Below, in pieces: positions 6,720-40,253 of a stretch of 60,018 bases of DNA (positions are counted from its first letter, which is position 1; each line of letters opens with the position of its first letter). Below the pieces are notes generated by a model. That model saw nothing but the letters and a program-made list of their open reading frames with translations, ran no database searches and had not been told where the DNA came from. Source of the DNA: a virus; IMG/VR virus record IMGVR_UViG_3300022538_000807, positions 1 to 60,018 of that record, one strand, 5' to 3'. A program made the position numbers and the translations under genes.

Positions 6720-6739
6720 TTGACTCTCCTTAGGAATGC

Positions 6740-7492: not shown

Positions 7493-7504
7493 GTTAATCT
7501 CTCC

Positions 7505-8824: not shown

Positions 8825-8833
8825 TTTGTTCTC

Positions 8834-11653: not shown

Positions 11654-11659
11654 TTTTAC

Positions 11660-12835: not shown

Positions 12836-12836
12836 T

Positions 12837-16881: not shown

Positions 16882-16901
16882 TCTCCTTTATTCTCCTTTC
16901 T

Positions 16902-17321: not shown

Positions 17322-17520
17322 AATTTCCTCCTTCGTGGTATATAGCTATAGGAATACTAGGATTAGATTTAGCATTCCCCTTTTGCTAACTAAAAATTAG
17401 TTACTTTTTTTATGCACAACCAGACCGTTTATGTCACATAAGTAACACTAAATGATTCGCTTTGTGCAAAAAGTGACCATCTATGACCCATAAATGACCC
17501 ATAAATGTCCCAAATATTGT
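17322..17520. other. Non-coding gap upstream of the tail tube gene
   Basis: 199 bp without a credible gene. It contains an AT-rich dyad TAACTAA-AAA-TTAGTTA (17387-17403), a CCCCTTTTGCT 11-mer (17377-17387) also found in the two other large virion-operon gaps, and a direct repeat of ATGACCCATAA (about 17478-17500). No good sigma70 promoter is visible on the minus strand. Confidence 0.5.
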
Positions 17521-17943
17521 TTATGTATTAGACATAATAATGCGAAACCGGATAATCCCATGTCTCACAACAACAGCCGGTTCTGTGTCGTCTATAATAA
17601 TTTCACTATAATCATGGCGAAGTATATGAGAACCACAGCCTCCAACGGTTAAAACTGAGCCAGTTATAGCCTGCACAATATTATCCATCATCTGAGCGGC
17701 TTCTTTGTCGCCCAAATAATCACTCCAAACATGAACCATGAATATATTATCTTCAACCCAAGCATCTCTTGAGCTAAAGGTTGCAGAGTCTACGCTTGAG
17801 AACCCCCCAAAACTTATATAGGGCATAGAGGTATTATCTGGCACATAGTTATATGTAGAATATCCCAGCGTTAACGCATCTGTAGCGAGGCGAGTATAGA
17901 CTGCTTGCTGTAAATCCCAAAAACCAAGATATCTAATTGCCAT
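17521..17943 (-). CDS. Tail terminator / completion protein (DUF3168-like), 140 aa
   Basis: 'FWDLQQAVYTRLATDALTLG' followed by 'YVPDNTSMPYISFGGF' and 'FMVHVWSDYLGDKEAAQMMDNI' matches the DUF3168/gpU-like tail completion family: N-terminal helix, 'P.I.lG' strand, and the D-K-E-A helix. This protein caps the tail tube and contacts the neck. Normally it lies next to the HK97-gp10-like protein; here a seven-gene glycan island separates them. Confidence 0.75.
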   Translation of the reverse strand: MAIRYLGFWDLQQAVYTRLATDALTLGYSTYNYVPDNTSMPYISFGGFSSVDSATFSSRDAWVEDNIFMVHVWSDYLGDKEAAQMMDNIVQAITGSVLTVGGCGSHILRHDYSEIIIDDTEPAVVVRHGIIRFRIIMSNT

Positions 17944-19592: not shown

Positions 19593-20450
19593 TTATTTAC
19601 AAATTCTATCTAATATTTCATCTATTCTGTTTGATGCCCTATGATATTTCATGGTGAAATTAAGGCCTTCTTTAGCAATGGCATTGGCTTGGGCAGTATG
19701 TTCCAAAAAATACAATATCTTCTCTTGGAGCTCTTTAAGTCCTTGATCCGATAGTTCATAAAATATGCAATGCTTTCCATCAACAAGCGGGTGGATCATC
19801 GGGATATACATTTTATCAGCAAAAACAAACGCCCCATTTGCGAACGCTTCCCACATTCTATGGTCTCCCTCGTGCTTACCAGGATCACAGGTAACTACAA
19901 TTCTACTTCTTTTCAATAGCTTAAAATATTCCCTCATATCAGGAGCGTTAAACCTGCGCATTGTTCCCTTGTTGAATTCTCCAATTTGCTTTTTACCTTG
20001 AATGTCAATTTTCTTTACAAGCTCCAAAGCCCTCACCCTATTAAGATGCCGGCCATATGGTCTTATCGTACATGATAACACCACATCTCTTTCTGTGTCT
20101 TCGCTAATTATGAACTCATCCATAATTGCAAGGGTTAAAGGATAAAAATTAGGGGGTCGTGAAACAGGTCTTTTAATAACATAATTCCCCTTGCTTACCG
20201 CTTCTGTCCAGCTTCTTTTGAAATATGCTAAACACTTAACAGAGGCAACCCAATTGAATCTATCGTGATAATCAATAAAAACGGTTTTATTGGGAGGAAA
20301 TTGTCCAGTAGCAGTATAAAACAGAAAGACAAAATCACTCTCTTTCTCATTGTCAACAAGCTTAATCCTAGGATTGTTTACAAGTCCCTGTTTAATAAGC
20401 AAATATTCCCTTGTTGGTGAGTTGCTAGGAACATAATAAATTTTAATTAT
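19593..20450 (-). CDS. CgeB-like GT-B glycosyltransferase, about 285 aa
   Basis: The C-terminal half matches the glycosyltransferase fold of CgeB-type proteins: 'FKLLKRSRIVVTCDPGKHEGDHRMWEAFANGAFVFADKM' and 'HPLVDGKHCIFYELSDQGLKELQEKI'. The Glu of 'RMWEAFANG' is the expected nucleotide-sugar ligand. The shortest start is TTG at 20402, but the frame stays open upstream and encodes 'KIYYVPSNSPTREYL', a convincing first beta-strand and helix. No ATG or GTG exists there; ATA 20450 or ATT 20447, placed after GGAGG in the tail of the previous gene, are the only candidates. Confidence 0.65.
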   Translation of the reverse strand: MIKIYYVPSNSPTREYLLIKQGLVNNPRIKLVDNEKESDFVFLFYTATGQFPPNKTVFIDYHDRFNWVASVKCLAYFKRSWTEAVSKGNYVIKRPVSRPPNFYPLTLAIMDEFIISEDTERDVVLSCTIRPYGRHLNRVRALELVKKIDIQGKKQIGEFNKGTMRRFNAPDMREYFKLLKRSRIVVTCDPGKHEGDHRMWEAFANGAFVFADKMYIPMIHPLVDGKHCIFYELSDQGLKELQEKILYFLEHTAQANAIAKEGLNFTMKYHRASNRIDEILDRICK

Positions 20451-21115
20451 TTTCTCTTTGCCCTCCCTTTATAATGAACCATGCAAGCATCTTCTATGTC
20501 TGTTGGATAAGCTCCGTAGATTCTTTTCTCTAATGGCAATATCTTATACCCATGAACTTCGTAAATTTGTCCCGAAATAATCTTGCAAGAATCCTCTTCT
20601 GGAAGCATTATTTGATTCAGAGAACTCTGTTTATTAAACCAACTTTGTTTCCACCCATCGATTTTCAAAGTTTCGGGAAAAAATCTAAAGTCAGGCTTTC
20701 CCCAAAGTTCGGCTTTGTTAATCCACTCAACCCAAAACCTCCGAATAATATCAGGTCTTTTATTATTAAGGGCAACTAACCCAGCATTATAATCTTGCCG
20801 CCCATTTTCATTACAATGCCTTCCTCGGTAACAAACGGCAACATCCCAATCGGCTTCAAAGATATTTGGTAAGGGTTTTTTTAGTTCATTGTCACAATCC
20901 AACACAATTATTGGCCTTGAGTTTATTGCTTTTATGATATAAGAATATAACAAACAAGCTGATACAGTAAAAAAATCTGCATTTTTTCCTGGAAAATTAA
21001 CCTTAATGAGCTGAAAATCGCCAGCATCAAATCTTTTTATGCTCTTTTCAAGTTCTTTGGCAAGAGTTAAATATGGTTCTCTAGGATTTGAAAAAGTAAG
21101 AAATAAAGGTCTCAT
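20447..21115 (-). CDS. GT-A glycosyltransferase (tandem paralogue B), 222 aa
   Basis: 'RPIIVLDCDNELKKPLPNIFEADWDVAVCYRG' carries the D-C-D metal motif of GT-A enzymes near residue 75, followed by 'QDYNAGLVALNNKRPDIIRRFW', the sugar/nucleotide pocket. It is clearly paralogous to the next gene upstream (21112-21822), sharing the opening 'PLFL..SN..EPYLT.A.EL', 'GDF' and the 'YKILPLE.RIY' end. Likely transfers one sugar in the late glycan pathway; specificity unknown. Confidence 0.75.
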   Translation of the reverse strand: MRPLFLTFSNPREPYLTLAKELEKSIKRFDAGDFQLIKVNFPGKNADFFTVSACLLYSYIIKAINSRPIIVLDCDNELKKPLPNIFEADWDVAVCYRGRHCNENGRQDYNAGLVALNNKRPDIIRRFWVEWINKAELWGKPDFRFFPETLKIDGWKQSWFNKQSSLNQIMLPEEDSCKIISGQIYEVHGYKILPLEKRIYGAYPTDIEDACMVHYKGRAKRK

Positions 21116-21822
21116 GGCTTTCTTCTAATTCCTTTGCTTTTTCCTTTATATTGAATCATATAAGCATCATTTGAATCTTTTGGAAGGGCAGCATAAATCC
21201 TTCTTTCAAGTGGTAGTATTTTATAATCACAGGTTTCGTAAATCTCTCCAGGAACTATTTTATAAGAATCTTCTTCTGGATTCCCCCGATTGCTTTCTGG
21301 AAGAATTATCTGATTTAATGCACCCTGATCAGAAAACCAGGAGTCAAGCCACCCATCGTCTATTAGTACTTGGGGAGACGGCTTTTCGTTACATTGCCTC
21401 CAGAATGCAATCATATATGTCCATTCAATCCAAAACTTTTTAATAACAGTAGGCCTTCTATTGTTGAGGGCAACAAATCCAGAACCATAGTCATGTCTTC
21501 CACTGTCTCTTCTTTGTGCCCAGCGAAAAGCTACTGCTATATCCCAATCTGTTTCGAATAAACAATCAAGAGGCTTTATTAATACAGCATCGCAATCAGT
21601 CAATATTATGGGTCTTGTCATAATTGCCTTTGATACATGAGGATATAATAGGCCATTTGCTTCGGCAAAGAAATTCATATCATTGCCTGGGCCCTCAACA
21701 AAAACATGATGGAAATCGCCTGCATCCAGATTCTTGATCTGCCTTCTCAGCTCATGAGCCATTGTTAAATATGGCTCTGCTCCATTGGAATAAACCAAAA
21801 ATAAAGGCTTTATATTTCCCAT
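21112..21822 (-). CDS. GT-A glycosyltransferase (tandem paralogue A), 236 aa
   Basis: Contains 'RPIILTDCDAVLIKPLDCLFETDWDIAVAFRW' (D-C-D motif) and 'HDYGSGFVALNNRRPTVIKKFW', then 'SWFSDQGALNQIILPE', as in family-8/32-like GT-A enzymes. It overlaps its downstream paralogue by 4 bp (ATGA), so the pair arose by tandem duplication and remained coupled. Differences around the acceptor side ('NEKPSPQVLIDDGW') suggest different acceptors. Confidence 0.75.
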   Translation of the reverse strand: MGNIKPLFLVYSNGAEPYLTMAHELRRQIKNLDAGDFHHVFVEGPGNDMNFFAEANGLLYPHVSKAIMTRPIILTDCDAVLIKPLDCLFETDWDIAVAFRWAQRRDSGRHDYGSGFVALNNRRPTVIKKFWIEWTYMIAFWRQCNEKPSPQVLIDDGWLDSWFSDQGALNQIILPESNRGNPEEDSYKIVPGEIYETCDYKILPLERRIYAALPKDSNDAYMIQYKGKSKGIRRKP

Positions 21823-22493
21823 TTATCGTATATCTTAAAATAATTATCCGCTGTTAATTCTTTAAGCTGCTGTTCAAATTCAGGCTTTAATACTCCATGA
21901 AATCGCTCGTTTAAATATAGCCCCCCAAGAACCTCTTTTGCTTTAGCATCCTCTATGTCTTTCATGTCCTGCGTAATATATTCGTGGCGTAATATTCCAA
22001 CGCCCCCTTCAATTGCATCTTTTGCTATCGAGTTCCATAGCGAAGCGTAATCTTCAACACACGCTTTTGTATTAATTCCACCATAGCGTATTGCATGCCT
22101 CTTGTGTCGTATTGTAAGAAGGACAACCATAATATGAACAGGATGTCGTATTAGACAAAAAACATTTTCTATCTTATTCTTTCTAAAAAACAGACCCATA
22201 AGCGATAGGCTTCCTGCCAAAACGGTATTCTTTGTTCCATCGGCATTAATGCGTTCAAGATAATCAACCATATTCTCTTCTATTGTTCTATCCAAATCCA
22301 ATGTATACCAATCATACGTCCTCTTTAAAAATCTTTCTCGTTGCTTCTCTGTCGGCTTGTCTGTAGATTTTATGTTTTTACAATAAATGCCATGTCGTGG
22401 ATAAAAAGCAAGATCGGGTCTTTTATGTGCAGGAAGGCATTTACGTAAATATGTTCCGCCTTGCCCCCCACATGCAACTATAATAATCCCCAT
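21810..22493 (-). CDS. Sulfotransferase-like P-loop protein, 227 aa
   Basis: The N-terminus 'IIIVACGGQGGTYLRKCL' sits where sulfotransferases have the 5'-phosphosulfate loop (G-x-x-G-T-x-L). 'NVFCLIRHPVHIMVVLL' near residue 118 matches the 3'-phosphate motif (R-H/D-P). Later 'ASLWNSIAK...VGILRHEYITQD' follows the order of the family. Probable role: PAPS-dependent sulfation of a glycan in the pathway encoded around it. The alternative is a non-sulfo P-loop kinase. It overlaps both neighbours (13 bp and 1 bp). Confidence 0.6.
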   Translation of the reverse strand: MGIIIVACGGQGGTYLRKCLPAHKRPDLAFYPRHGIYCKNIKSTDKPTEKQRERFLKRTYDWYTLDLDRTIEENMVDYLERINADGTKNTVLAGSLSLMGLFFRKNKIENVFCLIRHPVHIMVVLLTIRHKRHAIRYGGINTKACVEDYASLWNSIAKDAIEGGVGILRHEYITQDMKDIEDAKAKEVLGGLYLNERFHGVLKPEFEQQLKELTADNYFKIYDKWEI

Positions 22494-23122
22494 TATTTCT
22501 TCTCCAGGACTATAAAATTTCCTCTTTTCTCTTCTGATCCAGAATAAAATTCAATAATTTGATACTTGTTGGAATCAATTCTTTCTATCTGCCGGTTTAT
22601 CCAATCCTTTGCTTTTTTTCCACCTCGCAATCCGAAAATTAAAAGACAACTGTTTTTAAGGAGAGGATGAATATCTTCTAAAAATGAGTTAATAGGCCAA
22701 TGAAATCCCAATGCTAAGAAACTATAAACCAAATCAGGCCTGTAGCTTAGATCCTCCCATTTACATTTTTCAAGGTTAAATATCTCGACATTCTCCATTC
22801 CATTGGATCTACAAAATAGCCCTGTCACTTCTAGGGAATTATAAAAATCAGACTCACCTGTTCTTATTCCCGACAACTGTTTATCACCCGAATCCCCATC
22901 TGCTAGAACAAACAGGGTATCTTTCCAATTGAAATATTTAAAGAGAAAGACGCTTGCCCGTCCTATTCCTGAACCGACATCCAAGGCTATTTTAGGATTC
23001 AAATCTTTTAAATACCCTTCAATTCCTTCAATTTCTGATAATTGAAGAAAATCTTCTTTTTTATCATTACATTGAAGGTCAATATATTTCTGTACTTCTT
23101 CAGGAAAGCCTACCTCAATCAT
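22493..23122 (-). CDS. Class I SAM-dependent methyltransferase, 209 aa
   Basis: Motif I 'IALDVGSGIGRASVFLFKYF' (near residues 63-82) is the AdoMet-binding glycine loop, followed by an acidic 'FVLADGD' and 'DLVYSFLALGFHWP', typical of small-molecule methyltransferases such as sugar O-methyltransferases. The final block ('KYQIIEFYSGSEEKRGNFIVLEKK') is a beta hairpin. Position between the sulfotransferase and glycosyltransferase genes argues for glycan methylation. Confidence 0.7.
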   Translation of the reverse strand: MIEVGFPEEVQKYIDLQCNDKKEDFLQLSEIEGIEGYLKDLNPKIALDVGSGIGRASVFLFKYFNWKDTLFVLADGDSGDKQLSGIRTGESDFYNSLEVTGLFCRSNGMENVEIFNLEKCKWEDLSYRPDLVYSFLALGFHWPINSFLEDIHPLLKNSCLLIFGLRGGKKAKDWINRQIERIDSNKYQIIEFYSGSEEKRGNFIVLEKK

Positions 23123-23874
23123 CTTGTCCTTGCCCTCTCTAATCGCTTTTCTCTCAAAAGTATTCTATGCTCTCGCCTAATCCGCCTTTTTTCTTCAGGA
23201 GAAAACACCTGGTCTTTTGTTATATTGTGAATATGAGAAACAAAACAGTTAAGCGCAACTGCTGATTTATAGCCCGAGTGCCTTACCCTTTCATTATAAT
23301 CATCGTCATTTCCCCAGCAGGTAAGCCTTTCATCAAGCATTCCTACTTTATCAACCATTTCTCTACGCAACACCGCACAAAACATTGAAACATTATCATT
23401 GCAATAAACAAACCTTGAGGGAAGCTTATTTATCATATCATATCGCATATCTGGTCCTAGTAATTTATGTACGGGTATCATATAAGAAGCCCTCGGACAG
23501 TTAGAACCGATATTGTCAGTCAGTGGAGAAATCAAACCAATTTCAGGCTGCTCCTCCATTATTGCGATGAGTTTTGTTAACCACTTTTTAGTTACAAAAA
23601 CATCATTGCTCAGGGTTACCACATACTTGGAATCAGAAAGCTCTATCCCTTTATTCGTACCCCTTGCATAATACTGGTTTTCTTCAAACCGAAACACTAC
23701 GGAATCTTCAAAAGTCTTAACATATTTTTTTACCGTCTCATAATTCTCTTTCTTTGAACCATTGTCCACCCAGATTATTCGATAGGGCATGCGTGTTTTG
23801 TCCTTTACTGTTCTTAGACAATTTAATGTCATAATAGGAAAATTCCATCCCAAAATAGTGATGTCTATTCTCAT
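23119..23874 (-). CDS. Family-2 glycosyltransferase, 251 aa
   Basis: Classic GT2 layout: 'DITILGWNFPIMTLNCLRTV' strand, 'IIWVDNGSKKENY' nucleotide-binding loop, 'ENQYYARGTNKGIELSDSKYVVTLSNDVFV' with the Asn-Asp metal motif replacing DxD, and 'LTCWGNDDDYNERVRHSGYK' (ED-like catalytic region). Closest in style to rhamnosyl- or galactosyltransferases of O-antigen pathways. The 4-bp overlaps with both neighbours show co-translation. Confidence 0.8.
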   Translation of the reverse strand: MRIDITILGWNFPIMTLNCLRTVKDKTRMPYRIIWVDNGSKKENYETVKKYVKTFEDSVVFRFEENQYYARGTNKGIELSDSKYVVTLSNDVFVTKKWLTKLIAIMEEQPEIGLISPLTDNIGSNCPRASYMIPVHKLLGPDMRYDMINKLPSRFVYCNDNVSMFCAVLRREMVDKVGMLDERLTCWGNDDDYNERVRHSGYKSAVALNCFVSHIHNITKDQVFSPEEKRRIRREHRILLREKRLERARTR

Positions 23875-24635
23875 ATTTTATAAACTTTTCCAATTCCAAA
23901 ATCCACAAGTGCCTTTGTGATAATCTCCTTGTCTATGATTTTTTCCCCTCTCCATCGGATAGTACTACCTTTTTTTATATCGCTAATATTTTGAATATGC
24001 CTGATATGACAAACTTTATATCCTATAATCTCTTTTGTTGTGGACAAATTTGCACTGGCAAAACGATGATTCACATAATGCTGTTCAATAAAATCCCCCC
24101 ATTTCTTATAGATAGAACGAGGAAAAACATGGGTGAAAAAGGGCGAAGATTGTGCACGTACATGATATATAATATAATGCCTTAGAGTATCCCAAATAAT
24201 ATACTGTTTTATTATTAACTCGCTTCTTTTATCATCAATAAAAACAGAGTCTTTAATCTCCGCCATCAGGTCTTTATGGAAAAGGTCGTCTGAATCAATC
24301 CTTGTTATTGCAACGTGTTCAGTGTCTATTGTGTCATATCCAGCTACCATTGATGCTGGTCGCATTCGCTTGGGATTGGTTAGCCTGTCCTCCCCCTGCA
24401 CATGATAAACTTCCACCTTCGGATGCCAGGGCAAACTTTCCGTTATCGCCTTATGTCTATTTCCACAAATTGCGAATATTCTAAAATCCTGAAAGCTTTG
24501 ATTTAATAAACTAGGTAATGTGTATTTCTTAAAAATCCTAAAACGCTGCTTAATCCATTCAGGATTCAACTGGGCTTCCCCAGGTGGTCTATCAAAACTA
24601 AAAAATATCTCTACTATGTGAGTTATGTCGCTCAT
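23871..24635 (-). CDS. Putative rhamnosyltransferase, 254 aa
   Basis: 'EWIKQRFRIFKKYTLPSLLNQSFQDFRIFAI' and 'HVAITRIDSDDLFHKDLMAEI' match the putative rhamnosyl transferase family (PF11316): the 'R...F..yTLPSL..Q' opening and the R-x-D-x-D-D metal motif. It overlaps the HK97-gp10-like neck gene by 4 bp, so the glycan island is translationally fused to the virion genes at this edge. Sugar donor assignment is by family only. Confidence 0.7.
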   Translation of the reverse strand: MSDITHIVEIFFSFDRPPGEAQLNPEWIKQRFRIFKKYTLPSLLNQSFQDFRIFAICGNRHKAITESLPWHPKVEVYHVQGEDRLTNPKRMRPASMVAGYDTIDTEHVAITRIDSDDLFHKDLMAEIKDSVFIDDKRSELIIKQYIIWDTLRHYIIYHVRAQSSPFFTHVFPRSIYKKWGDFIEQHYVNHRFASANLSTTKEIIGYKVCHIRHIQNISDIKKGSTIRWRGEKIIDKEIITKALVDFGIGKVYKI

Positions 24636-25060
24636 TTCTTAAATACTTTCGATATCTCCTTGACTACTTCACCCTCATTTTTATGATAGGCTGGAAACAG
24701 ATATGGCTTTGCTGACATTTTGCGAGTTCCAAATTCTTGATATGGAGCATATTTCACATTAGTGCCAACTACTACAGCCAATCCTTTTGGACCCCCGGGC
24801 TGCCCTACGCCATCACCCGATTTAGCCTGTCCTCCTGTTTTGCCTTCTGGCAGTCCACTTCCCGACCAGTTGGTTGAAATCGAACCTCTAAGCCTTGATG
24901 TATCCACTGGAGACTTCCTTTTAGCATCTGCCTCAATTTTAAGCCCTACTGTCTTTAGAATATCACTACACGCCTCTTTTTTAATAACCTGATAATTCTT
25001 CAGCTTGGCAATCGCTTCCTGTACGCCTGTGACCTTTATGGTTATTCTATCTTTAGCCAT
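24632..25060 (-). CDS. HK97 gp10-like neck/tail protein, 142 aa
   Basis: 'VTGVQEAIAKLKNYQ' , 'KIEADAKRKSPVDTSRLRGSIS' and 'VVVGTNVKYAPYQEFGTRKMSAKPYLFPAY' are hallmark blocks of the HK97-gp10 family (head-tail joining/neck). The insert between them is unusually Gly/Pro/Gln rich. It should bridge the connector and tail terminator. Confidence 0.85.
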   Translation of the reverse strand: MAKDRITIKVTGVQEAIAKLKNYQVIKKEACSDILKTVGLKIEADAKRKSPVDTSRLRGSISTNWSGSGLPEGKTGGQAKSGDGVGQPGGPKGLAVVVGTNVKYAPYQEFGTRKMSAKPYLFPAYHKNEGEVVKEISKVFKK

Positions 25061-27242: not shown

Positions 27243-27422
27243 TTATTTAGCCTTATCTGCCATTTCCACCATTTTATTCTCTGGTGGTTTTTCAAATAGC
27301 TTTGCTACCCCTTGTTCTATCCACTTTTGGGCAATATGTTCATAGGTATCGAATGTTTTGCCCTTCTTGTGGCAACAGCCGAAGTTTTTAAGAAATACTA
27401 CTTTTACCATAGTGCGATTCAT
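27243..27422 (-). CDS. Small phage packaging-region protein, 59 aa
   Basis: Starts in an ATGA overlap with the GT4 gene (ATG 27420-27422; a second ATG lies four codons in). 'VKVVFLKNFGCCHKKGKTFDTYEHIAQKWIEQGVAKLFEKP' resembles small proteins found next to phage connector genes ('LKN...G...A..LIE.G.A'). Its precise role is unknown. Confidence 0.6.
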   Translation of the reverse strand: MNRTMVKVVFLKNFGCCHKKGKTFDTYEHIAQKWIEQGVAKLFEKPPENKMVEMADKAK

Positions 27423-28594
27423 TTCTTTAACCTATCCTCAAATATTTTTAATGCTGGAATCCAATATTTATCCCATACTACATTCCAATCATATTCCAGA
27501 ACACTTTCTCTAGCATCTTTCTTTAGGCTTTTCCAATCGCCATGTTTCCAAAAGTTATAAGCTACTGCCAAACACTTCAAGATATTTGACACTCGTGGTT
27601 CTTCTCTCCATGTTCCAGTCGGCAACCAACGCAGGTCATCATCATCCACATCAATTAACCACCCTGATTTGCATAGTTCAGAACCGGTAGTGGTATCTGT
27701 GGTTATTGTTGGTATGCCACAGCTTTGTGCTTCAACTATGGGCATTCCAAATCCTTCGCCTTTTGTTGCCAGGCAAAACACATCAAATCCGTTATAGGTA
27801 TTACTTAACCAATTCTCATCTAGCCTATTAAAATCATAATATTGTTGATTTGGATAAGTTACATAATCAACAATCTCCAAATCTTCACCTATTCGAGCAT
27901 AGTCAATTGAGGAATCTCTTAGTCCTGGTGCGTGGGTATGAAGATATAACCTTGCCTCTGGATGTTGTTTGTGGAATTCTTTAAATGCCCGCATTAGAGG
28001 AATAAACCCCTTTCTATCATCACTATAGTTGAGCCCTACAGAACCAATGATAAAAAGATTCTCATCTTCCCAGTCAACGCTTTTCCTGAAGGCTTTTCGC
28101 CCCTCTGTAGATGGCTTAAAGACTTCCGTATTAATTCCTAGTGGGATATACAGCGGATCAAGTCCGATGGACTTCAGTTCTCTTGCGCCATGTTTAGACA
28201 TTGCAATTCGAATACCAGGACCTTTATTCTCTTCAATATTAGAATCTTTACCTAAAATAAGACTAGCATAGTGAGTTGCTATCCATTCTGTATCTATAGG
28301 AAGATAGGCAATCCATTTTTCATGTGGAAAATGACGCTTTTCTGCTAACAACCAAACATCCCAGAATGTAAAGATATAATCAAAATTCTCCTCTTTTATC
28401 ATCGCACAGAGATGTTTGAGGTTAAGTCCCTCAAAAATCTCAATACCTTCCCACTTGTGCCAACCACTATGAACATGCTTAGTGGCAATTCTTACAAAGT
28501 GTCCTGCTTTAACAAGCCTTCGCACAAGCTCCTTGGTAACAATCCCATAAGCCGAATTGCATATGGGGGTGGAACTATTCCAGAGGATTCGCAT
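27419..28594 (-). CDS. Family-4 GT-B glycosyltransferase, 391 aa
   Basis: The N-terminal Rossmann domain opens 'ILWNSSTPICNSAYGIVTKELVRRLVKAGHFV' (G-x-G-like acceptor loop). The C-terminal domain has 'LFIIGSVGLNYSDDRKGFIPLMRAFKEF' and the EX7E-type retaining motif 'EGFGMPIVEAQSCGIPTITT'. A full-length retaining GT4 enzyme that uses nucleotide sugars. It stands alone between two virion genes, apart from the main island. Confidence 0.85.
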   Translation of the reverse strand: MRILWNSSTPICNSAYGIVTKELVRRLVKAGHFVRIATKHVHSGWHKWEGIEIFEGLNLKHLCAMIKEENFDYIFTFWDVWLLAEKRHFPHEKWIAYLPIDTEWIATHYASLILGKDSNIEENKGPGIRIAMSKHGARELKSIGLDPLYIPLGINTEVFKPSTEGRKAFRKSVDWEDENLFIIGSVGLNYSDDRKGFIPLMRAFKEFHKQHPEARLYLHTHAPGLRDSSIDYARIGEDLEIVDYVTYPNQQYYDFNRLDENWLSNTYNGFDVFCLATKGEGFGMPIVEAQSCGIPTITTDTTTGSELCKSGWLIDVDDDDLRWLPTGTWREEPRVSNILKCLAVAYNFWKHGDWKSLKKDARESVLEYDWNVVWDKYWIPALKIFEDRLKK

Positions 28595-28606: not shown

Positions 28607-28816
28607 TTAAAAGTATGAGTACGTTGCTCTGTTATCCCATACTTTATCGAATTTATTGTCAGCACCAGCCCATTGTTCAGCGACAATAAGGCCTCCTGAA
28701 TATATGAGCTTTTTTATCTTCCACATTGCAGTTGCGTTTTTCGTACCCGGCAATGCCCATCCTTCATATATGGGATCATTACCAAAGTAATCTATGTTAT
28801 GTGTTAGTTTGGCCAT
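28607..28816 (-). CDS. Hypothetical protein, 69 aa
   Basis: Strong GGAGG site; ends 12 bp before the GT4 gene. Trp/Tyr-rich and compact ('YEGWALPGTKNATAMWKIKKLIYSGGLIVAEQW'). Style is that of small beta-structured virion accessories (decoration or tip proteins) but I cannot assign it. No signal peptide, unlike the next four genes. Confidence 0.55.
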   Translation of the reverse strand: MAKLTHNIDYFGNDPIYEGWALPGTKNATAMWKIKKLIYSGGLIVAEQWAGADNKFDKVWDNRATYSYF

Positions 28817-28846: not shown

Positions 28847-29179
28847 TTAATTCACATATCCGTTATCTATTAGCCACTGTTTCAATTCAGTCAGCTTTGT
28901 TATCCTTACCTGTACCCATTGTACGGAATAGTCAGGATGAATATTTAAAATCTTGATAAGCTCATTTCTTCTATTTACATCGTCAATTATCTCTGCCTTT
29001 TCTGACTCTATGCTTACAATGGTGTTATAAAGTTGCTGTATTTGCATTTCGCCACTTTCAAGTGCCCCGATAATCACCCTGAAGTCTCGCCAAGCTTCTT
29101 TATTCGCTTCCTGTGCCAAAAGAAATATTGACATCGAAAGAATCAATGCAATCCCGATAAATATTAATGTCTTTTTCAT
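28847..29179 (-). CDS. Exported coiled-coil helper protein, 110 aa
   Basis: Begins with a classical Sec signal peptide: MKK, a hydrophobic core (TLIFIGIALILSMSIFLLA) and a likely cleavage after LLA before QEANKEAW. The mature part repeats the helper at 7232-7492: 'AWRDFRVIIGALE', 'SEKAEIIDD', 'ILNIHPDYSVQW', 'LTELKQWLIDNGY'. It is therefore an exported paralogue of a cytoplasmic tail-region protein. It is the last of four consecutive signal-peptide genes. Confidence 0.75.
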   Translation of the reverse strand: MKKTLIFIGIALILSMSIFLLAQEANKEAWRDFRVIIGALESGEMQIQQLYNTIVSIESEKAEIIDDVNRRNELIKILNIHPDYSVQWVQVRITKLTELKQWLIDNGYVN

Positions 29180-29195
29180 ATTGCCTCCTATTATA

Positions 29196-29867
29196 TTATG
29201 TTAAATCCTCTCCAAGCTTGTCGTCTATAAACGCGAAATGAACCTGGATGAGACAGGCGTCCGTTCCGAGAGTATCCTCACTGAAATCGCGCCATAGCCG
29301 AAGTCCCAAAATATCATGAGCGATTGCGCCTGTGATGCCGGTCGTCAGCCTTATCCGGATGAGCATACCAGTAGCATGGTTACCGTCAGTGGTCGTGGTT
29401 ATAGTCGTTGTTGTATCATTGACCGTCTCACCACCCACAATAGTAATATAATCAAGATTCCAGCAGACAGTCCCGTTATCCTGCGCACCGGTATAGCACC
29501 AATCAACATCAACGTCTATTGTTGTGCCGACTGCCAATCTGAATGGCACTATGATGGAGTAATATGCCTCGTCGTCATGTGTCGAATCGAAAAGAATCAC
29601 AGGGAAAATCCCGACTAAACCATCCGTCGGGGCTTCAGCCCCTCTCTCCCAACTAGGTGCGGTAACACGCACATGATTCCTCACTCTCGCCGTTCCGACC
29701 ATTGTCAGCGTGCCGTCTGGTGACAACTGCGTGTAGTTGGCCGTATCCCCCATTTGGAACGTACCATCATCAGCTATCCGCAACCAAGCCAGATGAAGAT
29801 AGTGATCGGCCATGAGGAAAGCGCAGAAAACGAAAACAGCTAAGCCGATAATCGCCAGTTTTTTCAT
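29196..29867 (-). CDS. Exported beta-sandwich protein, 223 aa
   Basis: Signal peptide: MKK then LAIIGLAVFVFCAFLMA, likely cleaved before DHYLHLAW. The mature region is rich in beta residues and resembles phage receptor-binding or fibre domains: 'ANYTQLSPDGTLTMVGTARVRNHVRVTAPSWERG', 'GIFPVILFDSTHDDEAYYSIIVPFRLAVGTTIDVDVDW', a Thr-rich turn and 'ILGLRLWRDFSEDTLGTDACLIQVHFAF'. Two cysteines (DWCYTG, TVCWN) could form a disulfide after export. G/C-rich codon use compared with many neighbours. Confidence 0.7.
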   Translation of the reverse strand: MKKLAIIGLAVFVFCAFLMADHYLHLAWLRIADDGTFQMGDTANYTQLSPDGTLTMVGTARVRNHVRVTAPSWERGAEAPTDGLVGIFPVILFDSTHDDEAYYSIIVPFRLAVGTTIDVDVDWCYTGAQDNGTVCWNLDYITIVGGETVNDTTTTITTTTDGNHATGMLIRIRLTTGITGAIAHDILGLRLWRDFSEDTLGTDACLIQVHFAFIDDKLGEDLT

Positions 29868-29879
29868 CTTTAAACCTCT

Positions 29880-31025
29880 TTAATATTGCGTATAAATGAA
29901 ATAAAATATCACTTCGCCTGCGCTTGTTGTATTAAGATTGGCTCCTACTGCCGTGGAATAAGCCAACCAGGCTTTAGCGGCCGTGGTATAATAAGCCCCT
30001 GCTGTAGTGGCACTCCAATAAGCACCCTTTAGGCTGTAGTCCAGCCCTACGGCATCAGAAGTCAGGTTCATCGTCTCCAGTAATATCCCAGTATTGTCGC
30101 CCGCATCTCCTACGGTGACATCCAAATCCGTCATGCCCGCCGCCACAAATTGAGTCTCTAAAACAATAATAACATTCTCCAATCGGCTATTGGCTGGCTG
30201 TGTCCAGATAGTAACGGAGTCTGTCAGACCTGCCGCATCGAACAGGTCAGAGCCGTGAACTTTGGCTATATGGTATCTGGCTATGTTGTAGAGCGATGTG
30301 TCGTTCGTGTCATCAACCCTGAAGTCGGCAAAGAAGTTGTATCCCTTGCCCGATGATGCGTCACCCACGCTTGTCAGTAGCGACTTAATTAATAGGCTTC
30401 CGCCTGCTGCTGTATTAGTCTGGTTATATTTGTCTTCAAAATACATCCATGCCTGCTCTGCGTTGTCATCAACGAGTTCAATGTTGGCAGCGGAATCAAA
30501 TTCAACAGCATTACCCGAAGATCTGTCATACACATTGCGAAAAGTAGGCCTTCCCGAAATTTCAAATATGAAGTTTGATTTTGCATATATTGTATCATGC
30601 GTGATTCTTAAATAATCGGTGAAAGCCGCATCCATTATATATATTGCAGGCTCCGCAGATGCAGCCAATCCTCTATCGGTATTAATATCTCCCCTATCAC
30701 AGATAATCAAAGTCCGCAGGGCCTCATCAAGCCCTATCCTCAAGTCAGTACCAGCTAAACCTTCGGCTGTAGATGTCCTAATTAAATTTGAATAAGCTAC
30801 ACTCCCAAGTGATAATTGAGAATTGTCATCTGAAACAAATTCCAACACGATAGTCGAATCGCCATCAGCATCATTTATCGTTAATGAAGTCAAGAAAGTA
30901 GGTGAATCACCCGCTCCCATATACCAATCAAGCTTTCCTGTAAATGGGTTATAACGCCAATCGGCATAGCCTGTCGATGCCACCAAAAACAGTAAAGCTA
31001 TTATTGTTATAATTAATTTTTTCAT
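29880..31025 (-). CDS. Exported fibre-like protein, 381 aa
   Basis: Signal peptide: MKK then LIITIIALLFLVASTGYA, cleavage expected before DWRYNPFTG. The mature protein shares two long blocks with the tail fibre at 7505-8824: 'GLDEALRTLIICDRGDINTD' and 'IELVDDNAEQAWMYFEDK'. It also contains 'PFTGKLDWYMG', a fibre-type N-terminal segment. It is therefore a tail-fibre paralogue redirected to the cell envelope or outside. It overlaps the next upstream gene by 4 bp (ATGA). A membrane-anchored alternative is less likely given the clean cleavage site. Confidence 0.75.
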   Translation of the reverse strand: MKKLIITIIALLFLVASTGYADWRYNPFTGKLDWYMGAGDSPTFLTSLTINDADGDSTIVLEFVSDDNSQLSLGSVAYSNLIRTSTAEGLAGTDLRIGLDEALRTLIICDRGDINTDRGLAASAEPAIYIMDAAFTDYLRITHDTIYAKSNFIFEISGRPTFRNVYDRSSGNAVEFDSAANIELVDDNAEQAWMYFEDKYNQTNTAAGGSLLIKSLLTSVGDASSGKGYNFFADFRVDDTNDTSLYNIARYHIAKVHGSDLFDAAGLTDSVTIWTQPANSRLENVIIVLETQFVAAGMTDLDVTVGDAGDNTGILLETMNLTSDAVGLDYSLKGAYWSATTAGAYYTTAAKAWLAYSTAVGANLNTTSAGEVIFYFIYTQY

Positions 31026-31375
31026 TTTTTATCCTCCTTTATTTGCTCCTCTATCTCCTTCTCGGCTTCAGCCTGGAGCTTTAGAAAATCCTGCGTTGTA
31101 ATAAAAATCCCGTTTCTCAAATCTAAAATTGCATCTTCAGGCATATCCTCAAATTCAGCGAACCGTTTAATCAACTCTGCTTTATATGAATTCACTTTAA
31201 TTTGAAATTCCATGTTGAATTTCTCAATCATGTTCTGAAGATTCTCTGCCATATAAACAGGCAGTTTCCATGTTTTTATTTCAAGCTTATCCTCTTTTAC
31301 TGCCTCATCAGATAAACATGGAATAGAGACAAGGAAAACCATTAGAAATATCATAATTGCTGTTTTTTTAAACAT
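31022..31375 (-). CDS. Exported helical protein, 117 aa
   Basis: Signal peptide: MFKK then TAIMIFLMVFLVSIPCLS, cleavage probably before DEAVKEDK; a lipoprotein is less likely because the residue three before Cys is Ser. The mature chain is helical and charged ('MIEKFNMEFQIKVNSYKAELIKRFAEF', 'KLQAEAEKEIEEQIKEDKK'). First gene after the terminator at 31402-31433 and coupled by ATGA to the exported fibre. Confidence 0.65.
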   Translation of the reverse strand: MFKKTAIMIFLMVFLVSIPCLSDEAVKEDKLEIKTWKLPVYMAENLQNMIEKFNMEFQIKVNSYKAELIKRFAEFEDMPEDAILDLRNGIFITTQDFLKLQAEAEKEIEEQIKEDKK

Positions 31376-31401
31376 TATTACTCCTTTGTTACTTGTTTAT
31401 A

Positions 31402-31433
31402 GAAAAAGGGAAGAGGAGTTGTCTCCTCCTCCC
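31402..31433 (-). terminator. Intrinsic terminator downstream of the capsid genes
   Basis: In the minus-strand RNA, GGGAG-GAGGAG pairs with CTCCTC-TTCCC around an ACAA tetraloop (11 bp, one G-U), followed immediately by UUUUUC. It is the best intrinsic terminator in the window. It lies between the capsid/decoration genes and the signal-peptide cassette and should reduce or regulate their expression. Confidence 0.75.
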
Positions 31434-31444
31434 CATCTATTATG

Positions 31445-31906
31445 TCAATTCAGCATGGTCGCTTGTTTGTACCTAGCTCTACCTTGAACCAAGAATATAC
31501 TTGCTACTTCCGAACCATCTGTGTCGTTGGTGGTAAGTCTTGCGCCGACATAAGCATAGCCCGATGACAGGCCTTCGCCTCGGACTTGAGCCTCAAGTAT
31601 ATCAAGACTCGCTCCAGCAGCAGAAGTGTAAGTGTCAATACAATTGGGTGCGGCAGTTGTTGATAAAGCCTGTGCACCTCCACCGGTTGCATCAGTAGCT
31701 TCATACATTGCAAGAGTTACAACTGCACCACTAGAACAGCTACTAACGTGTCCAACAGCACGAATTAAATCATAATATCGTGCACGGCAATATGCAGGTG
31801 TTTCAATACAATCAGCAGCGGGTGGACTGGCTTCTGAACCAAGGTCAGTTGACATATCAAGGCCACTAGATCGATAATTCTGTTTGAAGACGTGTACGTT
31901 CGCCAT
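31445..31906 (-). CDS. Putative capsid decoration protein, 153 aa
   Basis: Encoded directly after the two capsid genes and before a terminator, so likely abundant. Ala/Thr/Ser/Gly-rich beta protein ('VVTLAMYEATDATGGGAQALSTT', 'SSGYAYVGARLTTNDTDGSEVASIFLVQGRARY') with four cysteines. Composition and place fit a head decoration protein; there is no direct sequence proof. Confidence 0.55.
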   Translation of the reverse strand: MANVHVFKQNYRSSGLDMSTDLGSEASPPAADCIETPAYCRARYYDLIRAVGHVSSCSSGAVVTLAMYEATDATGGGAQALSTTAAPNCIDTYTSAAGASLDILEAQVRGEGLSSGYAYVGARLTTNDTDGSEVASIFLVQGRARYKQATMLN

Positions 31907-31967: not shown

Positions 31968-33029
31968 TTAGCTCACTTGTGCGGCAAGAACCACAAAAGC
32001 ACTTACGGTATTAGCCCCTCGATAAGGGGTTATAGGATCACCCATAATGGGTTGTCCATCTACCCTAAGCACCACTCGCCAGAACGTCTCGTCGGTTACG
32101 AATCCTACGTGTTCGTAGTTTTGTAATCGAAGTTGTAGATAATCCATATCACGAGACGCATCTATTGTCATTTCCCTATCAGCTATTACATAGTGACTAA
32201 AGTCAGCCAATAACAAATCCCCTGTAGTACCAAGAGCATAAGCCTTTTCACTGACTATAATCGGCAACCCTAGAAGTTTACGATCATTCACATTAACAAC
32301 ACTAACAACACCCGCCTCTACCGTATCAAGACGGAATATTTCCTCTAAAGTATCAGAATTCATAATCCAGACCGCCCTATTCCAGCTATCAGGCAACAAC
32401 CTCAATGCCATCCCAACAACATCGTCGTAAAGGATGGAGTTGGCCTGTGCCCTAGGAACTGTAATAAGAGCACCAGAATTTATGACTCCCATCGGTTGAT
32501 TCACACCAGTGCCGTTAATGAAACTATCGTCTTCAATAAAGCGTAAAGCTCTACCAAAGCTAATCTTCATGAAATCACCAAATTTACCATAATCGGCCTC
32601 TAGCTCATTACTGACAAAACAGCCGCCAACAAGTTTGTGCGGAGTAAGTTCCAGTTCACCGAGAGCGGGTTTAGAGACTCTATATGCCTTGCTGCCCGCT
32701 TCCTCCAGCCATCTAAAAGTGATTCCACCAAAAAGGCTAGAGACACGACTGGTTTCAACCATTCGCCTCACCTTTAAGGAATCACTTGTGGCTTTAAGAA
32801 CGGTAGCTCGTGGACGCACAATTGCATCCTCAAGAGCAACGCTGTAAATCTCCTTTGCCCATTGTTCGGGAACAAGATACCCACCTTGAGAATCATCCCC
32901 AATTTCCATGTGGCCTGCTGTCTTTCGTAATAGCCGACTGTCCTTTATGCCAGAAGCACAAGCTTTGCGAACTCTGACTAAGAACTCACCAAGACTTCTG
33001 AATCCGCCTGTTCCATCGTCTGTACTCAT
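31968..33029 (-). CDS. Second HK97-fold major capsid protein, 353 aa
   Basis: Aligns along its length with the capsid gene just upstream: 'KTAGHMEIGDDSQGGYLVPE', 'VVRPRAT'-like 'IVRPRATVLKATSDSLK', 'ELTPHKLVGGCFVSNELEAD', 'FIEDDSFINGTGVNQPMGVI', 'LLGLPIIVSEKAYALG', 'FSHYVIADREMTIDAS'. These are the N-arm, E-loop, P-domain and A-domain landmarks of HK97 subunits. Unlike the first copy, it lacks the N-terminal delta/scaffold domain, having only about 25 residues before the conserved arm. It may form a different capsomer (for example pentamers) or co-assemble. Confidence 0.85.
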   Translation of the reverse strand: MSTDDGTGGFRSLGEFLVRVRKACASGIKDSRLLRKTAGHMEIGDDSQGGYLVPEQWAKEIYSVALEDAIVRPRATVLKATSDSLKVRRMVETSRVSSLFGGITFRWLEEAGSKAYRVSKPALGELELTPHKLVGGCFVSNELEADYGKFGDFMKISFGRALRFIEDDSFINGTGVNQPMGVINSGALITVPRAQANSILYDDVVGMALRLLPDSWNRAVWIMNSDTLEEIFRLDTVEAGVVSVVNVNDRKLLGLPIIVSEKAYALGTTGDLLLADFSHYVIADREMTIDASRDMDYLQLRLQNYEHVGFVTDETFWRVVLRVDGQPIMGDPITPYRGANTVSAFVVLAAQVS

Positions 33030-33041
33030 TTTTAACCTCTA

Positions 33042-34394
33042 TTAGCTTGTAGCGGCATTAAGAACAACAAACGGTGACATAGAATGAGCACCGTACCTGG
33101 TTGTGAGCGTAGCTGCAGGCCAACACATGCCAGCAACTCTAAGCACGAACCTCCATGCTGTCTCATCGTAATCAAATCGTAGATGAGAACTTGCATCGAT
33201 GGTTATAGGTTGACGGTCTCCGATTAAGTAATACTTAAAATCGAAGAAACCGATATCTCCCTGTACACCAAGTCCCTGCATTTTTTCACTCACGATAACG
33301 GGTCTCCCGAAAATCTTCATTGGAAGAGGTTCGTTCGCTCCGCCATCTGCACTAATCCAGATCATGTTCTTACCAGAAGCATCAGCAGCATTGCCCGTTC
33401 CCAACTCAATAAGCTCAGCTAAAACTTCAGGGTTAATTACCCAGAAGGCCCTGCCTAATGAAGGAGTAAGCATTGCTTGATACATTTCTGCTAAATCTTC
33501 CAGCATCACCCTATTTGCCGTGTTACGAAAAACACTAAGCAAACATCCGCATTGAAGAATTCCCAAAGGCTGTCCACCACCCGTACCATTGATGAATGCG
33601 TCATCCTCGAAAAATCCCCAGGCAGTTCCAAACTGTCTCTTAATGAGTGGTTGCAATGCGATTGCACTGTCAGCCAAAAGTTCATTAGAGGCATAGGTCA
33701 TGCCGGCGAGTTTATGAGGAACGAGTTCCATCTGTCCAAATTCAGGTTTGGTAGGAGTTTTCTGTTTAGTTTCGGCAGTCCAATAGGCTATGATTCCACC
33801 ATATACAGAAGTCACATGAGAAGTGTCATTGATGTATGGAATTTTTAAAGAATCAGTAGTCATCTTGAGAATGGTTGCCCTAGGTCTTACGACTGCCCCT
33901 TCAAGAGCGATTTCGTAAAGGTCTTTCAGGAAAATCTCAGGAACTAAGAATCCACCCTGTGTGTCGTCTCCAATTTCCATGTGTCCGGCTGTTTTAGCTA
34001 GAGGATCAGTATATCTTCCGGCAGGGTCTACCCAAGTTAAGCGAGAATCAATAGCACTTCGGTTCATTCTGAACCTTCTGATTGAAGTCAGATATTCTCC
34101 GAATGTTTTGAATCCCTTGGCTTTTTCTGCTGCTAGTTTTTCTTCAGCGGTAGGTTCTGCAACCTTTACTTTCTCTTTTGCCTTATCAACGGAATCCTGT
34201 AAGAGTTCTTTCAACTGGTCTTGGACATAAGGATCAACTTGCTCTTTCACGAGATCCATTAGTTGCTCATCTATTGTCTTTTTAGTCTGCTCTGCGACTA
34301 AATCTTGTAGTTCACTTTCTTTCATTGTCTTTCCATAGTATGCTGACTTTTGAATTTCAGCGATTAGACGAATACCCCCGTTGTTAACCAACAA
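33042..34394 (-). CDS. HK97-fold major capsid protein with delta domain, 450 aa
   Basis: The first ~110 residues are helical and Glu/Lys/Gln-rich ('ELQDLVAEQTKKTIDEQLMDLVKEQ...'), an HK97-type delta scaffold removed by the protease. The capsid core begins near 'AKTAGHMEIGDDTQGGFLVPE' and continues with 'VVRPRATILKMTTDSLKIP', 'ELVPHKLAGMTYASNELLAD', 'FFEDDAFINGTGGGQPLGIL' and 'IFGRPVIVSEKMQGLG'. The start is uncertain: TTG 34392-34394 gives the form listed; ATG 34323-34325 (MKESELQ) behind GGAAAG is the main alternative. Confidence 0.9.
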   Translation of the reverse strand: MLVNNGGIRLIAEIQKSAYYGKTMKESELQDLVAEQTKKTIDEQLMDLVKEQVDPYVQDQLKELLQDSVDKAKEKVKVAEPTAEEKLAAEKAKGFKTFGEYLTSIRRFRMNRSAIDSRLTWVDPAGRYTDPLAKTAGHMEIGDDTQGGFLVPEIFLKDLYEIALEGAVVRPRATILKMTTDSLKIPYINDTSHVTSVYGGIIAYWTAETKQKTPTKPEFGQMELVPHKLAGMTYASNELLADSAIALQPLIKRQFGTAWGFFEDDAFINGTGGGQPLGILQCGCLLSVFRNTANRVMLEDLAEMYQAMLTPSLGRAFWVINPEVLAELIELGTGNAADASGKNMIWISADGGANEPLPMKIFGRPVIVSEKMQGLGVQGDIGFFDFKYYLIGDRQPITIDASSHLRFDYDETAWRFVLRVAGMCWPAATLTTRYGAHSMSPFVVLNAATS

Positions 34395-38316: not shown

Positions 38317-39642
38317 TTATCCCTTGTTGTGTTTTCCTGTTTCCTCAACATAGGCTTTCATCCGTCTGACATTATCCTTCATCTGGCATATCGGAAGGAA
38401 TCTATTATGAATCATCGGCTCATATTCTCTTTCAACTTTCTTCCCGTTTTTCATAACCCAGCCATATTGATTATACTTCCTGAAATCTTTACTCAGAATC
38501 TCACAGTTGTATCTATCGGGATTGTTCCATATCGGACTTCCCGGAAGCGGGGTGAATGTGGAAAGCGTAATCATATCAAAATCAAGCCTACTAATATAAT
38601 CCCTATTTAACTCAGGAGTGTCTGCCCTTTCTCCTGGCGTTCCCATCATAAATAATACCTTAATTTTTAAACCTGCCTTCTTTGCATTTCTGCATCCTTC
38701 TAGCATCGCTTCCGCATCTATATGTTTATCCAAAAAATCGAGGACTCGCTGATCTCCGCTTTCAACTCCTGGCCAAATCTCCCTGCATCCAGCAGTTACC
38801 AGAGATTCACATATCTCAGAATCAAGCTGATCGGCTCGTACTAGACACCGCCAGATAATATCAAGCTTTTTAAATTGATCGCACAGATTTAGACATCTTC
38901 TTCTATTCAATGTCATATTATCATCCCATATCCCGAACTGCCTTATTCCAGTAGATTCGACAATCTCTTTTATCTCCGAAACGATATTAAATATTGACCT
39001 ATATCTTGTTTTTCGCTCCCACATAGATTGGGATGCACAAAAAGCACAATTAAATGAACATCCTCTGGAAGTTATAAGACTCTCGCTTCCACCGCTGACA
39101 TAGCTTTCTCTGTTTACGAAAATATCCTCGCCATAACTTCCCTCAATTAACGACCTGTCGGGAAAAGGAATAGCATCAAGATCCTCAATAAATCCATTGG
39201 GGCAATAAATTTTTTTAAGTTCTCCCTTCTCAACATCTCTAACCATATCCGATATAATAAGCTCACCCTCGCCTATGCCTATCGCATCAAATAAATCACC
39301 CTTAGAAATATCCTGATACATCGCCGTAGCATGAGTACCACCAAGAAATATCTTTATACCAGGAAGATGTTTCCTTATCCATATAGCACATTCCACATTC
39401 ATCGGATATTCTAGTGTTGTTCCACTCATACAGATAATATCCGCATCCTCGAAGTTGATAAAATCCTCTTTCCTTTGGGGGCGTACCAACCTTGCTTCGT
39501 AACCTTCTCTTTTAAGAATTGTAGCTAAATATAGCGGTCCTAATGCAATGTGCATATTTTGTCTAACAAGCCAGGGACTAGGAGTTTCAACAAAAACTAT
39601 CTTCAAGTCTGCCTGTCTTTTAATAAATCCGATATCACCCAT
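38317..39642 (-). CDS. B12-binding-domain radical SAM enzyme, about 441 aa
   Basis: The N-terminal half is cobalamin-binding-like ('GPLYLATILKREGYEARLV', 'FEDADIICMSGTTLEYPMNVECA', 'KIFLGGTHATAMYQDI'). The central domain has the 4Fe-4S motif 'SRGCSFNCAFCASQ' (CxxxCxxC) and radical SAM barrel blocks 'FGIWDDNMTLNRRRC', 'IWPGVESGDQRVLDFL'. Such enzymes do difficult C-methylations, rearrangements or epimerisations, often on antibiotics or polysaccharides. The start is unclear: ATG 39640-39642 lies inside the previous gene; TTG 39604-39606 sits right at its stop. A full-length B12 radical SAM gene in a virion operon is very unusual. Confidence 0.85.
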   Translation of the reverse strand: MGDIGFIKRQADLKIVFVETPSPWLVRQNMHIALGPLYLATILKREGYEARLVRPQRKEDFINFEDADIICMSGTTLEYPMNVECAIWIRKHLPGIKIFLGGTHATAMYQDISKGDLFDAIGIGEGELIISDMVRDVEKGELKKIYCPNGFIEDLDAIPFPDRSLIEGSYGEDIFVNRESYVSGGSESLITSRGCSFNCAFCASQSMWERKTRYRSIFNIVSEIKEIVESTGIRQFGIWDDNMTLNRRRCLNLCDQFKKLDIIWRCLVRADQLDSEICESLVTAGCREIWPGVESGDQRVLDFLDKHIDAEAMLEGCRNAKKAGLKIKVLFMMGTPGERADTPELNRDYISRLDFDMITLSTFTPLPGSPIWNNPDRYNCEILSKDFRKYNQYGWVMKNGKKVEREYEPMIHNRFLPICQMKDNVRRMKAYVEETGKHNKG

Positions 39643-40253
39643 ATCATAACTGACAACCGTACCCTTCCATGCCTCATGAACCCTCCGGATATATATTCGA
39701 TAATTGGAGTTTCTGACCAGAGGATTTGCCATTTGGATGCCATTCCTTTAAGGCGTTCCGAACCATCAACTTCGGTTTGCCAAGGCGTTTCTCCGTCTCG
39801 CAAAACATCGAGAAGATATGACTTTTGCCAAATTGCAGTTTGCAGTGACATAGAAAATTGCTTGTCAAGAGGATATTCCCTGAAACCCTTGTGAACATTA
39901 GTGCTAATTGCATGGTTAATGAACCATTTGTCTGGAGCGTTTAGCTTCACGCAACCCACGTTGCCCTCACAAAGACTTTCTGCTTGCTCGATTCTTTTAG
40001 TGTCCACTATCTTATCGATAATATAATCATCCAGAATTAACAGAAACTTATCTTCTTTAGATTGTTTAAGATAATTAATTATCCCACTAGCCCACGACAC
40101 TCCACCAGTATAAAAAACCGCACCATCTATATGGTCTGTCTCAGTTATTATTTCAGTCTGATATGGATTATCTGGCCAGTTTTTCTTATAAAAGTGCGTG
40201 AAGATCGGAATTAAAAAATTATATCTATTGCAGGTTGAGACAATAACCCTCAT
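39603..40253 (-). CDS. Glycosyltransferase-like protein, 216 aa
   Basis: Opens 'MRVIVSTCNRYNFLIPIFTHFYKKNWP', has an acidic loop 'FLLILDDYIID' in place of DxD, and 'WQTEVDGSERLKGMASKW' with 'EYISGGFMRHGRV' near the end, in the order of GT-A enzymes. Start ATG 40251-40253 overlaps the previous stop (TGATG) with GGGAG upstream. Probable sugar transferase with unknown specificity. Confidence 0.6.
   Translation of the reverse strand: MRVIVSTCNRYNFLIPIFTHFYKKNWPDNPYQTEIITETDHIDGAVFYTGGVSWASGIINYLKQSKEDKFLLILDDYIIDKIVDTKRIEQAESLCEGNVGCVKLNAPDKWFINHAISTNVHKGFREYPLDKQFSMSLQTAIWQKSYLLDVLRDGETPWQTEVDGSERLKGMASKWQILWSETPIIEYISGGFMRHGRVRLSVMIWVISDLLKDRQT

Follow-up and report, generated by a model that had tools for sequence, protein, structure and literature searches.

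Five consecutive minus-strand genes of a tailed phage, transcribed in the order SP117-SP381-SP223-SP110-p69, very probably form an exported cassette of fibre type and would constitute a second, exported set of tail-fibre-type proteins. The window, which is a whole IMG/VR virus record of 60,018 bases taken at full length, encodes a terminase, a portal, a head-tail adaptor, a tape measure and a tail fibre, together with two tandem capsid-type proteins. On one side the cassette is bordered by the capsid/decoration genes (to 31445), on the other by a glycosyltransferase gene (from 28594). On present evidence it counts as a new variety of tail-fibre cassette. The literature covered, which was incomplete and mostly without subscription papers, contained no account of tail fibres with signal peptides.

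Signal peptides and insertion site of the cassette

The preliminary description had reported four consecutive signal-peptide genes at 28847-31375, and all four open reading frames are present there on the minus strand. SP117 (31022-31375; 117 aa) consists of a signal peptide (MFKKTAIMIFLMVFLVSIPCLS, cleaved before DEA) and about 95 further amino acids that are likely helical. Its stop codon overlaps the start of SP381 (29880-31025; 381 aa) in the sequence ATGA. The signal peptide of SP381 (MKKLIITIIALLFLVASTGYA, cleaved before DWR) is followed by YNPFTGKLDWY, and the mature protein begins DWRYNPFTGKLDWY. SP223 (29196-29867; 223 aa) combines a signal peptide (MKKLAIIGLAVFVFCAFLMA, cleaved before DHY) with a domain homologous to a tail-module protein, and SP110 (28847-29179; 110 aa) combines one (MKKTLIFIGIALILSMSIFLLA, cleaved before QEA) with a full-length paralogue of the tail-fibre helper. 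The last gene of the cassette, p69 (28607-28816, minus strand), encodes 69 amino acids without a signal peptide. All genes overlap or are separated by 12-30 bp.

Each of the four proteins starts with a lysine-rich n-region, an uncharged hydrophobic core and a cleavage site of small residues. Positions -3 and -1 are small in all four and none of the predicted mature proteins has a Cys at +1, a pattern of Sec export and signal peptidase I cleavage without a lipobox. SP110 has no Cys at all, the other three have Cys only within the signal peptide or deep in the mature part, and the match of SP110 to LPAM_1 is weak and under the cut-off. The signal peptides were called by heuristic scoring with a false-positive rate of about 1-2%; when these proteins were shuffled over their whole length, 0.5-1.8% of the shuffled versions were flagged, and in 18 capsid-relative loci the count was 2 of 141 open reading frames, so four in a row are not a matter of chance. 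It is from the signal peptides by themselves that export of the window proteins is predicted.

An artefact of start-site assignment or of the contig, the true proteins being without signal peptides, is highly improbable and found no support. Strong Shine-Dalgarno sequences (AAAGGAG, AAAGGAGG, AAGAGG and TAGGAGG) stand upstream of the four ATGs, and in none of the four genes does such a sequence accompany a further in-frame start downstream of the signal peptide and ahead of the conserved domain. The genes are moreover four independent ones, and the arrangement recurs in many other contigs. The wrong starts that the preliminary description had considered are thus not borne out.

The insertion site is flanked upstream by a conserved, decoration-like small gene that follows the major capsid gene (31445-31906, minus strand) and downstream by the glycosyltransferase gene (27419-28594, minus strand). 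Between the decoration gene and SP117 there is a strong intrinsic terminator with a 12-bp stem and a T tract (31400-31434, minus strand; fold -25.3 kcal/mol, z -4.6). Comparison with 18 IMG/VR loci related to the capsid protein, some on contigs that end early, found the signal-peptide block in none of them where readable. The site is empty in four relatives: the distance from the decoration gene to the glycosyltransferase gene is 66-78 bp in L007, L015 and L020 and 291 bp in L011, the decoration gene of which is 57% identical. The corresponding gap in the window is 2850 bp. Other relatives have beta-helix or fibre-like genes without signal peptides, sulfotransferase-like genes or sugar genes at the same spot, as judged from their N-termini by eye, and this varied content marks the spot as a variable locus for fibres and sugar modification. 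By these comparisons the block is an inserted cassette behind a strong terminator. The cassette is dispensable, since relatives do without it and the phage has a complete tail, fibre and helper included, whose proteins have no signal peptides.

Several other features of the window were observed. The two capsid-type proteins encoded in tandem at 31968-34394 (353 and 450 aa) are of the major-capsid type and related to each other, and most of the 18 relatives have the pair. The structural gene region also encodes a B12-binding radical SAM protein (38317-39732). A run of seven genes for proteins of 140-270 aa (19593-25060) adjoins a GT2 glycosyltransferase gene (17943-19592), together possibly a virus-encoded glycan pathway; two of the seven (19593-20402 and 21112-21822) had no PHROGs match.

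Homology to the phage's own tail proteins

The phage's non-exported fibre (7505-8824, minus strand; 439 aa), which owes its name to its position among the tail genes, and its non-exported helper (7232-7492, minus strand; 86 aa) both have a paralogue in the cassette. SP110 is 56% identical to the helper over 85 aa (E 3e-35), and its signal peptide is placed exactly ahead of the helper's own start. The identity to helpers of other phages is lower (47% and 40%), which fits duplication within the lineage. SP381 is 42% identical to the fibre over 210 aa (E 1e-42). The blocks seen earlier in common between these two proteins therefore reflect significant paralogy, but one that covers residues 41-247 only; ahead of it stands a virion-type fibre N-terminus, the motif of which the tail fibre does not have in common, and behind it an unrelated C-terminal domain made up of the last 134 residues. 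The absence of paralogy that would have undone the preliminary description was not encountered. Its proposal that a fibre-plus-helper unit was duplicated and redirected out of the cytoplasm is supported, and from the identities the in-lineage duplication appears best founded for the helper.

The helper gene also follows a fibre gene in two other phages, L003 and L031. These two pairs and the phage's own resemble the cassette in having adjacent genes, a homologous fibre domain and a helper that is homologous throughout; they differ from it in the lack of signal peptides and in the N- and C-terminal domains of the fibre. Chaperones of the Tfa/gp38 type are likewise small proteins encoded beside the fibre and duplicated with it, whereas in this phage one copy of the helper carries an export signal, and its chaperone role is putative. 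The helper gave no convincing Pfam, PHROG or NCBIfam family, and SP110 none in PADLOC either.

Residues 60-213 of SP223 are 33% identical (E 4e-22) to a tail-module protein of L031 (2498-3082) that is without a signal peptide; the preliminary description had offered for SP223 a guess at the fold, a fibre beta-sandwich. SP117 had no detectable relatives in the sequence data fetched. SP381 itself had no PHROG match, and as a single-sequence query it found no direct relatives in IMG/VR or INPHARED. Searches of the four proteins against Pfam, PHROGs, NCBIfam and PADLOC, and of SP381 and SP223 against PDB sequences, gave nothing convincing, and no PADLOC model of known anti-phage defence matched the cassette proteins. 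The AlphaFold models of SP381 (mean pLDDT 40, 6 sequences) and SP223 (mean pLDDT 46, 2 sequences) were too poor to use.

Signal peptides on fibres and tail-side proteins of other viruses

The module at the start of mature SP381 is found in other viruses, both with and without a signal peptide ahead of it. A scan of IMG/VR for YNPFTGKLD gave eight proteins, seven of which have a signal peptide directly ahead of the motif; the single exception (L026) begins MAFPYNPFTGKLD. In one of the proteins, that of L024, the N-terminus closely resembles that of SP381 (DWRYNPFTGKLDYFMG). In bacterial and archaeal genomes the scan found a version with a signal peptide in a Gallionella MAG contig (L038) and three versions without one in Bacteroidales; one further match was an enzyme and was discarded as coincidental. 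The mature N-termini DWRYNPFTGKLD, KLKYNPFTGKLD and TIYNPFTGKLD match the natural N-termini of fibres without signal peptides, namely MAIKFNPFTGNLD in the cultured cyanophage KBS-S-2A, the one of L026, MPYDFNPFTGNFD and MGYVLNPFTGQLD. The signal peptide is therefore an addition in front of a standard fibre N-terminus.

The fibre of KBS-S-2A (CPKG_00048, Caudoviricetes, [FY]NPFTGxLD) has the same N-terminal module as the cassette fibre and, like the exported relatives, adjoins a small gene after the coat protein gene that is p69-like in position and size only. It matches the exported protein SP411 of contig L153 weakly (residues 24-106, 36%, E 1e-3) and, unlike SP381, has no signal peptide. No cultured phage with the same exported fibres was found; the matches in RcKemmy, ctpbd312 and SnaP-R1 are without signal peptides.

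The p69 protein has the family pattern Y-x-G...PG...W-x-I-x-K...FD..WD.R..Y, with 37-41% identity to four family members and 249 relatives in IMG/VR, and members of the family repeatedly adjoin fibre genes with or without signal peptides. A scan that was blind to signal peptides covered 80 p69-family loci, some of them near-duplicate contigs. Signal-peptide genes of at least 150 aa numbered 33 of 265 at a distance of up to three genes from p69 and 2 of 184 beyond it (Fisher p 2.6e-6); four members of the query alignment came from beside signal-peptide genes, which may have biased the scan slightly towards that group. Of 59 distinct genes directly following p69, 15 encode a signal peptide, in most cases with an NPFTGKLD-like motif just behind it, and the versions without a signal peptide begin with the same module. 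In L057 there are three signal-peptide genes in a row, one homologous to SP381. Others among the exported relatives match tail-fibre PHROGs, and fibre-like, lectin-like or beta-helix domains are found in this group. Fibre-like genes with signal peptides thus recur in unrelated tailed viruses of bacteria and, probably, archaea, a recurrence that is absent from the preliminary description.

Signal peptides are found also on a tail-side connector. The podovirus-like 39.7-kb contig IMGVR_UViG_3300025087_000179 (L153, also L030) has six consecutive or nearby tail-side genes with signal peptides at 6572-18793, and its portal, capsid, scaffold-like and internal proteins have none. One of the six encodes an SU10-type head-tail adaptor (PF24175, E 1e-29, 104.7 bits vs a gathering threshold of 27), residues 25-221 of which align with positions 1-181 of the profile, so that the profile starts right behind the signal peptide. 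Another encodes a collar-domain fibre (PF07484, E 1e-24). The product of a third, 931 aa long, is a tail-side protein of uncertain identity that matches HMO-2011 gp44 weakly (E 7e-5) and has only itself as a match in IMG/VR; three other fibre-like proteins with signal peptides include one encoded after the capsid region. The adaptor and the collar fibre show that bona fide virion proteins can carry signal peptides. Like the cassette proteins, the adaptor is a tail-side protein of the virion with a signal peptide before a full domain; it differs in being a core connector, found in a single other contig, and the head-tail adaptor of the window has no signal peptide. A virion connector of this kind, noticed after the fact in that one contig, is hard to explain as a secreted decoy.

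A further line of evidence for export comes from the many contigs that look archaeal, as judged from their protein composition. N-x-S/T sites in the signal-peptide proteins of L053 number 156, where shuffled versions give 46.6 (sd 5.8), and in the other proteins 18 vs 14.6. The corresponding figures are 60 vs 29.6 and 17 vs 20.3 in L055, and 24 vs 12.2 and 27 vs 24.3 in L054. Enrichment was likewise seen in L078, L081, L098, L104, L136 and L141. With slightly different gene sets the remaining proteins of L053, L054, L064, L071 and L078 rise too, at least partly because other signal-peptide proteins are still in those sets. N-glycosylation by oligosaccharyltransferase takes place outside the archaeal cytoplasm, and the enrichment therefore gives independent support for export, which on these site counts is probably real in the archaeal-looking members. 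The enrichment is not seen in bacterial-looking members, among them the window, and with a bacterial host none would be expected.

The same data bear on whether the hydrophobic N-termini are uncleaved plugs or anchors, with a role inside the virion or, during assembly, at the membrane, rather than export signals. Such a role would avoid the problem of compartments posed by the adaptor of L153, and it is nevertheless improbable: the n-, h- and c-regions are canonical, the cleavage sites vary in sequence and not in pattern, and the enrichment in glycosylation sites of the archaeal-looking viruses is mainly in the signal-peptide proteins. SP223 moreover has two cysteines (Cys124 and Cys135) that the L031 homologue without a signal peptide lacks, a comparison with one protein in which the predicted hairpin holding the pair comes from a low-confidence model.

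Large exported fibre-like proteins very rich in N-x-S/T sites, the longest of 1991 aa, were observed in L053, L054, L055, L064, L071, L098, L104, L136 and L141, encoded beside a p69-family gene or near the capsid genes. A further recurring signal-peptide gene encodes about 250 aa (L064 3696-4484, L070 3922-4680 and L053 11243-12004); the mature N-termini of these proteins look alike, and in L053 the gene adjoins the capsid gene.

Possible fate of the exported proteins

The proposed course of events is that the cassette proteins would be made late, pass the inner membrane by way of Sec and be cut by signal peptidase I. SP381 and SP223 would then fold and form oligomers on the far side of the inner membrane, in the periplasm, aided by the co-exported SP110, and meet the released virions at lysis. 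That the exported set has kept a helper next to its fibre points to folding or assembly of the fibre on that side. Docking may take place through the YNPFTGKLD module, perhaps with p69, as position and conservation suggest; non-exported fibres of other phages begin with the same N-terminal module and would dock by it too, and the virions would in this way gain an extra adhesin. The chance that the exported proteins end up on virions is put slightly below even; the complete tail without signal peptides and the dispensability of the cassette speak against it. Among the three roles considered in the preliminary description (a cell-surface decoy or blocker of superinfection, an exported adhesin and a virion component assembled after export) the last is ranked first.

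The idea of a decoy that copies the phage's own tail fibre was weakened by the analysis. Receptor-binding tips are usually located in the C-terminal part of fibres, and it is this part that SP381 and the own fibre do not have in common, while a virion-type N-terminal module is kept behind the signal peptide. A decoy of the phage's own receptor was consequently rejected as first choice.

A free exported adhesin or receptor-masking unit, located in the periplasm of a Gram-negative host or on the surface, is the main alternative to the virion reading and is considered less likely than it. It would bind receptors from inside or after lysis and block superinfection or the adsorption of progeny to debris. 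The paralogy to the phage's own fibre and the dispensability of the cassette are in keeping with it, and there is a precedent in the superinfection-exclusion lipoprotein Llp of T5, a periplasmic phage protein that blocks the receptor FhuA (PMC9586334). Llp is phage-encoded and acts on the exported side of the inner membrane, as predicted for the cassette proteins; it is, however, a small lipoprotein unrelated to tail fibres, whereas the cassette proteins are not small lipoproteins of the Llp/Cor kind and have no lipobox for anchoring. The C-terminal third of SP381 offers no obvious mimic of the same tip, a virion-type N-terminal module and a helper are retained, and the exported set of L153 holds an adaptor and a collar protein, which are not expected to mask receptors.

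The cassette could also have been recruited from fibre genes to serve the infected or lysogenic host as a surface adhesin or conversion gene, for instance in biofilm formation or attachment. The fibre-like, lectin-like or beta-helix domains of the exported relatives would suit this role, which has a low probability given that the genes lie with p69 at short spacing within the late structural array, that no integrase or repressor match was found among the proteins scanned, which cover part of the window, and that no surface anchor was seen.

The preferred reading, a virion component that is added after export, can be extended, tentatively and with the balance against it, to other viruses. In some bacterial and archaeal tailed viruses, exported proteins may supply part of the virion. 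The cytoplasm would be the site of assembly for heads and internal proteins; fibres, at the extreme also the adaptor and other tail-side proteins, would be built outside it, and the two would be joined at the cell surface or upon opening of the inner membrane. The window cassette would be a modest bacterial example, with an extra exported fibre set. To our knowledge, all established assembly of tailed phages is cytoplasmic.

The recurrence of signal peptides exactly before virion-type fibre N-termini, together with the loading of glycosylation sites in archaeal-looking viruses, points to an overlooked class of exported fibres. If the exported proteins join the virion, part of the assembly takes place outside the cytoplasm, which would be a new mode of virion assembly, and fibres of archaeal viruses can be N-glycosylated. 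If they do not, phages possess a fibre-derived means of acting on the envelope. The combination of a signal peptide and YNPFTGKLD beside p69 is a short motif by which the class can be searched for and tested.

As regards the host of the phage itself, an 87-aa protein with a lipoprotein-like N-terminus is encoded at 50721-50984 of the window; it is possibly an outer-membrane spanin, which would hint at a Gram-negative host.
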